55,537 nucleotides of DNA. Source: Fidelibacterota bacterium (GTDB lineage Bacteria; Fidelibacterota; Marinisomatia; Marinisomatales; TCS55). The position numbers and the translations under genes are program-made. Below the pieces are notes generated by a model that had not been told where the DNA came from, ran no database searches, and saw nothing but the letters and a program-made list of their open reading frames with translations. The stretch lies in assembly GCA_029936965.1 (NCBI GenBank), contig JAPYRG010000016.1:1-55537 (forward strand). Direction: 5' to 3'. Positions 10,178 to 12,288 of this stretch are shown piece by piece (position 1 is the stretch's first letter; each line of letters starts with the position of its first letter).

Positions 10178-10771
10178 TTAGTTTTTGAATTTAATCCCAC
10201 AACCAAGTGCTTTAGTTGATGCATATTTAATATCATCTCCAGTAAGCATAGCATCAATTGCATTGGCAACGTATGGTTTTTTTACTTTCCTTGCTTTAGA
10301 CGCATTATCATCCACTGCCCCACGATAAACAAGTTCATCATTTTTATCAAATAAATATATATGAGGTGTCCTAGATGCTCCGAATTCTCGAGCAAGTTTC
10401 GATCCTTCATCCATCGTATAGAAAAAGTTGTAGTTATTATTTTCAGCATGTTTCTTCATTTCATCCATACTATCTGATGATCCAAAGTTCATTTCATTTG
10501 AATTTATAGCAATTACACCTATTCCTTTTGGTTTGTATTTTTTTGCTAATTCAACATATCTGTCTTCCCATTTGATCACCCATGGACAAGTATTGCATGA
10601 AAAAATAACCAATAAACCATTTTCCCCTTTTACATCACCTAAAGAAATATTCTTACCGCTAATATCTAGCATTTTTATATCTTCTAATGGTATCTTGGAC
10701 CCTAGATTTATCTCTTTCGCTTGCACATTAAAACTAATAAGTAATGTAGCTAAAGTAATTAAACGCATCAT
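10178..10771 (-). CDS. Exported thioredoxin/peroxiredoxin-like protein (CxxC)
   Basis: A 197-residue redoxin-fold protein with a signal peptide (about 1-18, ending NVQAKE). The active site FSCNTCPW gives Cys59 and Cys62, the CxxC of the thioredoxin-family group that usually reads CNHCPY. The SRTPHIYLF stretch supplies the cis-Pro loop. It is expected to act as a thiol-disulfide or peroxide reductase in the periplasm. The Shine-Dalgarno AGGAG (10777-10781 on the complement) overlaps the stop of the upstream TGA-containing TlpA-like gene 8 bases away, so the two are coupled and may work as a redox pair. The gene has a double ATG (10771 and 10768). Confidence 0.9.
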   Translation of the reverse strand: MMRLITLATLLISFNVQAKEINLGSKIPLEDIKMLDISGKNISLGDVKGENGLLVIFSCNTCPWVIKWEDRYVELAKKYKPKGIGVIAINSNEMNFGSSDSMDEMKKHAENNNYNFFYTMDEGSKLAREFGASRTPHIYLFDKNDELVYRGAVDDNASKARKVKKPYVANAIDAMLTGDDIKYASTKALGCGIKFKN

Positions 10772-10779
10772 ATTAACTC

Positions 10780-11268
10780 CTACGAATTTATTGCTTTTTT
10801 AACCGCTTCAATGAATCTCTGTTCATGATGCGAATTCTCCCAAAAATCTACGATAGAACCTGACAATTTTCCAAATACAATAGTAAATGGAAGAGTACCT
10901 GTCCAATCTCCATATAAACTATTAATAAACTCTTCATCAGGTTGATCTTTTATATATGCTTCTCCTTTAAAATTCATCTTTTTTAAATAATTGATAACAT
11001 CTTTTTCCTGCTCAAGCCAATCCGCGCTTACAAAAATTACCTTAAGATCTTGATGGTATTTTTCTCCTAAATCATATATAAACGGAAACTCCGCTATACA
11101 CGGTCCTCACCATGTTGCCCATACATTAATTAAAACTGCTCTCTTCCCTTTTTCTAATGCTGCAGCATCAAGCACATCTTGAGCAGTTACTCGAACAAGA
11201 TACCCTCTATCACAACCAATAAGGATAAATATAAAACTTATAAATAGTATCTTATATAGCTTGAACAC
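10780..11268 (-). CDS. Candidate selenoprotein: TlpA/thioredoxin-like lipoprotein with UGPC active site
   Basis: Reading through one in-frame TGA (11107-11109, codon 54) gives a complete 162-residue thioredoxin-fold lipoprotein from a GTG at 11268: signal peptide with lipobox ILIGC, then INVWATW-TGA-GPCIAEFP, VIFVSADW, and the cis-Pro segment TGTLPFTIVF. The TGA sits exactly where TlpA/ResA proteins have the first Cys of WCGPC. No other stop or frameshift occurs, and the downstream half keeps normal family features. TGA is an ordinary stop elsewhere here, for example in the gene ending at 1544. The best reading is selenocysteine, giving a U-x-x-C thioredoxin; a TGT/TGC to TGA nonsense mutation or a sequence error is the alternative. 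Standard gene callers would report only 10780-10977, starting at an internal Met. Confidence 0.72.
11074..11101 (-). promoter_or_regulatory. Candidate bacterial SECIS element after the in-frame TGA
   Basis: On the minus strand, 5 bases after the TGA, a hairpin forms with a 12-nt arm (11101-11090), a 3-nt loop GTT (11089-11087) and a 13-nt arm (11086-11074). It makes 12 pairs (three G-U) with one bulged U. The apical loop begins with G, 17 nt after the TGA. A short loop, a G among the first two loop bases and this spacing are features described for bacterial SECIS elements bound by SelB. AT-rich DNA makes chance hairpins common, but the four loop-closing pairs are CGGA/TCCG. Confidence 0.55.
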
Positions 11269-11289: not shown

Positions 11290-12288
11290 TTACGGATTAT
11301 CTATTAGTCCTGTTCGATCTTCTATCGATAAACGTCCTGAACTTGAACAAACAGGCGAGAAATTGGGAATAATATCAGGTATATTATCAAAATCATCATT
11401 GATTTTATCATATACTTCAGTTTTTGAAGGAAAAGAATAAACAGGAGGAATAAAGTATTGAATTGTTAAAACATTTGGGTTGTAAGTAAAATGATCAAGT
11501 TCCTGAACACCCAAAGCCAAAGTAAAATATACAAACAAAGAATCATTATCTTCCGTTAAGAAATAATAGGAAAACTTACCATCTGAATTAAGATCTAAAT
11601 CAAAAGTATGAGTAAAAAAACATGAACTTTGTTCATTATCACAATTTCCTTGCCAATCTCCATACGTAAAATAAGCACCTGTATCAGGAAAAAAGATTAA
11701 TAAGGAATCATGATCTTCAGTTGATTCTGTCTCCCAGGTAGTATCACCAGAGTTACTTACATTAAAACCAATAGTATCCAATCCTTCACATATATCTCGC
11801 AATTCCCATAGTCCCTTAAAAAGATCAAGATCCTCTAGATTATTGACAGTTCCATCCAGTGTGTCAACGCAAAGTAAACAGCTATTGTAACAAACAATAT
11901 CTAAAATAAGAGAATCCGTATCTGGTACTTCCAACCAACGGTTGCCAGTACCAGAAAGAACACATGATAAACTATCTAATGATTCTGCATTGCCACCAAG
12001 TACATTACTATTCAAATACATATATTCAACTGTATCGCCAATTGTACATGACAATGTTACTTCATATACACCGTTATTATTTGAATCAAGCATTCCTTCA
12101 ATAGATCCATTTGCTGATTCCATTGTACCTGCAATATGTACTCCATTAGCAGATACAGTTTCATTACCCATATCGACTCGGAATGTAACCCAAGCTTCTG
12201 GAGAAGAATCCCCTGAAACGCTACATGAATAATTAGCTAATACTGAAAGAAAAAGGATCGAAAATAAATAAATTTTAGTCCGAGGCAT
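11290..12288 (-). CDS. Hypothetical lipoprotein with N-terminal carbohydrate-binding-like domain
   Basis: A 332-residue protein with a lipoprotein signal (lipobox around ANYSC, Cys22). Residues about 33-110 (WVTFRVDMGNETVSANGVHIAG...) match a beta-sandwich motif, VTFxVDMSNETVSxxGVHIAG, that is common in secreted Bacteroidetes/Marinimicrobia proteins and resembles starch-binding folds. The C-terminal part (about 150-310) is rich in aspartate, tyrosine and phenylalanine and resembles surface lipoproteins of unknown function. It lies 21 bases upstream of the TGA-containing TlpA-like gene and may share its transcript. Confidence 0.75.
   Translation of the reverse strand: MPRTKIYLFSILFLSVLANYSCSVSGDSSPEAWVTFRVDMGNETVSANGVHIAGTMESANGSIEGMLDSNNNGVYEVTLSCTIGDTVEYMYLNSNVLGGNAESLDSLSCVLSGTGNRWLEVPDTDSLILDIVCYNSCLLCVDTLDGTVNNLEDLDLFKGLWELRDICEGLDTIGFNVSNSGDTTWETESTEDHDSLLIFFPDTGAYFTYGDWQGNCDNEQSSCFFTHTFDLDLNSDGKFSYYFLTEDNDSLFVYFTLALGVQELDHFTYNPNVLTIQYFIPPVYSFPSKTEVYDKINDDFDNIPDIIPNFSPVCSSSGRLSIEDRTGLIDNP

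Follow-up and report, generated by a model that had tools for sequence, protein, structure and literature searches.

UxxC selenoproteins of the thioredoxin (Trx)-, TlpA- and peroxiredoxin (Prx)-like types occur in large numbers in metagenomes from the sea (PMC1088965, PMC2398784; tabulated in PMC9312934 and PMC13188914), and the gene described here therefore adds one well-supported example to a known class. The rarity implied by an earlier note on this DNA was overstated, Trx/TlpA-like proteins of the UxxC type having already been catalogued. Two such groups are the thiol-disulfide isomerase-like selenoprotein of the Sargasso Sea, described in 2005 (cd02966 TlpA-like/PF13905, UxxC; PMC1088965, with entries also in PMC9312934 and PMC13188914), and the GOS "Trx-like 1" group (COG0526, UxxC, 321 sequences; PMC2398784). 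Our target has in common with both a TlpA-class TRX fold, selenocysteine (Sec) as the first residue of UxxC, a bacterial SECIS and a marine bacterial host; this likeness is one of class features, and what is resolved here relative to those groups is the genus, the Cys orthologues, the gene pair and the SECIS core. The Prx-like thiol:disulfide oxidoreductase selenoprotein (PF00578, UxxC) likewise shares an AhpC/TSA-related fold and the UxxC motif, although the target scores slightly higher as Thioredoxin, Thioredoxin_8 or Redoxin. ResA, TlpA and CcmG/DsbE, for which structures are solved, resemble the predicted fold of the target, but identity to them is only about 20–26%, the target lies far under the corresponding NCBIfam cut-offs, and they use Cys where it would use Sec. 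A literature search on Marinimicrobia/SAR406 returned no Marinimicrobia selenoprotein paper by title; SAR406 cells with an "orphan" SelD are listed in one paper.

The gene was found in a 55,537-nt stretch of DNA (referred to hereafter as the window). Placed by the earlier note at 10780–11268 with no strand given, it lies at these coordinates on the minus strand (GTG start at 11268, TAG stop at 10780, 162 aa); the same interval read on the plus strand contains many stops. In the minus-strand reading from 11268 to 10780, the single internal stop is a TGA (11107..11109) at residue 54, the first position of a U-G-P-C redox motif (VLINVWATW-TGA-GPCIAEFP), and the resolving Cys of this motif (C57, TGT at 11098..11100, minus strand) is invariant among 17 homologues. 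The N-terminus presents a hydrophobic stretch followed by the lipobox ILIGC (both read by eye) and then the TRX domain, which continues past the TGA into a cis-Pro region (TLPF) whose P127 is again invariant in the 17 homologues, such that the TRX fold, WCxxC-type motif and cis-Pro of the TlpA-like family are all present. The earlier description of a putative lipoprotein frame interrupted only at the first redox Cys, with the fold resuming normally beyond it, thus holds on the correct strand. Thioredoxin, Thioredoxin_8, Redoxin and AhpC-TSA are the Pfam families scoring above cut-off (PF00578 barely so, at 26.5 vs 26 bits), and the NCBIfam TlpA, ResA and DsbE models fall short of theirs (44.3 vs 230, 39.9 vs 170 and 38.5 vs 123 bits). 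An AlphaFold model built from 17 aligned sequences has a pLDDT of 88.9, and its best PDB matches are ResA, TlpA and DsbE/CcmG (Foldseek probability 1.00, best E 2.7e-10, TM about 0.6–0.7). A scan of the window for open stretches interrupted by TGA yielded 19, among which the tlpA-like gene has the lowest folding energy; at its TGA alone is there a recognisable redox motif, and none of the others has one.

We consider it very probable (about 96%) that this gene encodes a TlpA/ResA-type thiol-disulfide reductase, presumably exported and membrane-anchored, in which the nucleophilic Cys has been replaced by Sec (UxxC). The conserved TGA, the conserved hairpin that follows it, the complete Sec machinery of the genome and the predicted Trx fold support this reading, and the first three of these support the earlier proposal of a candidate selenoprotein.

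The hairpin lies within the coding region (11073..11102, minus strand) and comprises a 13-bp stem with one bulged U and a GUU loop (AGCGGA-GUU-UCCGUU). Between the UGA and the loop lie 17 nt, and the 3-nt, G-initial loop is as originally noted. Published constraints on bacterial SECIS elements (a 3–9 nt loop, 4–16 bp upper stem, G in the first two loop bases, 16–37 nt spacing, MFE <= −7.5; PMC13188914, Fig 2), on which together with the fold the assignment is based, agree with the loop GUU, an upper stem of at least 4–5 bp and the spacing of 17. The UGA and the 47 nt beyond it fold at −11.9 kcal/mol against a shuffle mean of −6.6 (z = −2.3); taken alone this z-score is modest, and the observation rises above chance because both the TGA and the hairpin are conserved in four other genomes. 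Across the five genomes the MFE values are −11.9, −12.3, −8.8, −9.8 and −7.6 (the last borderline), with the lower-stem fold differing in three of the five, whose energies of −7.6 to −9.8 come close to the published limit. The apical core itself (GCGGAG-UU-UCCG, 11083..11094, minus strand) is invariant, and sits inside a 15-nt run, GCGGAGTTTCCGTTT, that is identical in all five TGA genes and is the longest invariant nucleotide run of the CDS alignment. Invariance extends to synonymous sites (5/5 core codons vs 25/65 elsewhere, Fisher P = 0.012, a small test of 5 codons). Four core pairs with G first in the loop are seen in every TGA gene and in none of 34 Cys genes; conservation of the hairpin in relatives, a check proposed at the outset, is therefore found for its core. 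A search of the 2.1 Mb genome for TGA-N12-GCGGAG-NN-TCCG, with one mismatch allowed, returned three exact matches, each of them at the UxxC site of a thioredoxin-fold gene, and a reversed-pattern control across the genome returned none. Rfam gave no match on the window.

Searching 40 genomes of the family at the protein level recovered five full-length TGA genes, all from the genus of the window (G000, G001, G002, G003 and G005), and Cys at this codon in the remaining family homologues (in one Cys genome the codon contains an N). Every genus genome having the gene retains the TGA (5/5), at protein identities down to about 67%; in one further genus genome (72% complete) the gene was not found. 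A profile search of 245 phylum genomes gave 75 matches in 74 genomes at E <= 1e-25, with a stop in the same five only, and all 34 other homologues read codon by codon, which include Balneolota, Acidobacteriota, KSB1 and Calditrichota, have Cys (TGT/TGC). Values of dN/dS are 0.04–0.20 upstream of the TGA and 0.09–0.28 downstream, below 1 in every computable pair, a pattern in the aligned codons indicating that purifying selection acts on both sides of the TGA; decay in relatives, which the earlier note named as evidence against its reading, was looked for and no decay or frame loss was seen. A quick tree needs one Cys/Sec state change, in the genus of the window, placing the Sec clade (support 100) closest to Cys genes that belong to a different family within the order (support 87). 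One TGA genome additionally contains a second, partial match (G002:C43:27907-28062), 77% identical, which spans query residues 2–54, stops at the TGA and may reflect a contig edge, a duplicate or a strain variant.

The genome (2.14 Mb, 96.7% complete) encodes the full apparatus that the earlier note had proposed to look for: adjacent selA and selB genes (SelA 493 bits, SelB 330 bits), SelD (390 bits) and a tRNA-Sec with anticodon UCA (65.5 bits); the window itself contains no tRNAs. Two further loci of 398 aa each (G000:C4:27047-27913 and C4:42488-43354) score equally, at 194.7 bits, on the SelB profile and are probably duplicate EF-Tu genes. Sec machinery is common across the family (SelB in 32/40 genomes, tRNA-Sec in 31/40), and selenocysteine use therefore probably predates the TGA of the tlpA-like gene. 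One genus genome (67% complete) has the TGA gene without detectable selB and tRNA-Sec, and incompleteness plausibly accounts both for this and for the gene missing from the 72%-complete genome.

Further in-frame TGA genes occur in the same genome. Two encode TlpA-like lipoproteins with the TGA at UxxC: L166 (G000:C6:5610-5888, GW-U-NSC) and L167 (G000:C44:50881-51213, SY-U-GLC). Both share with the target the SECIS core GCGGAGGCTCCG, equally spaced from the TGA; over a longer stretch the minimum-energy fold favours other pairings, and the core there is therefore assigned by sequence and position, not by predicted energy. Three UxxC genes of this genome thus have one core at one spacing, as if its SelB favoured a single fixed SECIS for them. 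In-frame TGAs are also seen in a peroxiredoxin gene (L158, G000:C2:64440-64823, STPG-U), a gene for a SelW-like Rdx protein (L169, G000:C47:10796-11008, CNS-U) and selD itself (L017, G000:C35:56690-57616, GSG-U-ACK, with a plausible SECIS, GGUC-CGGAU-GACC), each at a known Sec position. An AhpD/CMD-type selenoprotein was searched for and none was found.

Were the TGA a real stop, the gene would be a decaying pseudogene or yield a short truncated protein, and gene finders would indeed call just a 65-aa 3′ portion starting at ATG 10977, as the earlier note had anticipated in predicting truncation. Against this, the frame is intact in five genomes under the constraint described above, with the TGA unchanged throughout and the hairpin conserved, leaving this explanation hardly any probability. 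A sequencing or assembly error concealing TGT or TGC deserves a thought given that the named relatives are metagenome assemblies, yet it is very unlikely, to the point of being negligible, because four other assemblies carry the same TGA: the codon is identical across 7 to 33% protein divergence (the four others being 67–93% identical), and it recurs in records NAT422 and MED-G176, possibly two of the same five genomes. NAT422, a relative with 92% identity, places the organism in Candidatus Neomarinimicrobiota. Decoding of UGA as Trp under an altered genetic code, or as Cys with the help of a suppressor tRNA, is highly improbable: TGA ends 8 of the 35 long ORFs in the window and is therefore a working stop there, homologues have Cys rather than Trp at the position, the SECIS-like core is confined to TGA genes, and a suppressor tRNA-Cys(UCA) would leave the hairpin unexplained.

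It could also be that Sec is inserted while the hairpin core is no SECIS and merely follows from conservation of the AEFPF peptide. That peptide motif is indeed conserved, and in the sister Cys genes three of the four core pairs can already form; however, the Cys genes L024, L025 and L154 encode the same AEFP peptide with other codons and form no stem, and in the two additional UxxC genes, where the peptide is AEAP, the core and its spacing are unchanged, rendering a by-product very unlikely.

With Sec insertion at this hairpin as the preferred reading, the near-pairing of the sister genes bears on how the element arose. In the closest Cys clade, three of the four members read GAG GAG TTT CCC where the TGA genes read GCG GAG TTT CCG; both halves of the missing core pair have changed (A-C to C-G), one of the two changes costing a Glu to Ala substitution in the protein. 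Judging from these codons, we lean somewhat towards a history in which one Marinimicrobiota genus adopted Sec in a two-gene redox unit that was already old, its SECIS arising from codons already nearly able to pair.

The second gene of this unit lies directly downstream (10178..10771, minus strand) and encodes a Redoxin/AhpC-TSA family protein with a CNTC motif; an 8-nt gap separates the two genes and a GGAG overlaps the tlpA stop, and the redoxin is probably co-transcribed with the tlpA-like gene. Upstream, a putative lipoprotein (11290..12288, minus strand, 21-nt gap), matched as a neighbour in 4/5 genus genomes, is possibly part of the same operon. The tlpA-like/redoxin pair (10178–11268) is present in all five genus genomes, in two Balneolota and in Cys genomes from several further families of the order, and this breadth suggests a functional unit; for most other members of the family to which the window belongs, the redoxin was not found beside the gene.

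From the evidence above we infer Sec insertion itself, export, the direction of redox flow, the electron donor and the partner, as follows. SelB, loaded with Sec-tRNA(UCA), would bind the hairpin whose loop starts 17 nt past the UGA, delivering Sec there in place of chain termination. The selenolate would then attack substrate disulfides, with the Cys three residues downstream resolving the selenosulfide. Reducing power would probably cross the membrane via a DsbD/CcdA-type protein (a DsbD_TM protein is present in the genome and is a possible electron donor), and the co-encoded redoxin is a candidate partner.

The analysis corrects how a conserved gene that gene finders would truncate is annotated, and indicates that at least six proteins of this genome, with roles in redox or selenium metabolism, contain selenocysteine. 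The locus also offers a compact comparative case, in which a single Cys-to-Sec conversion, its SECIS and the Cys sister genes can be viewed side by side.
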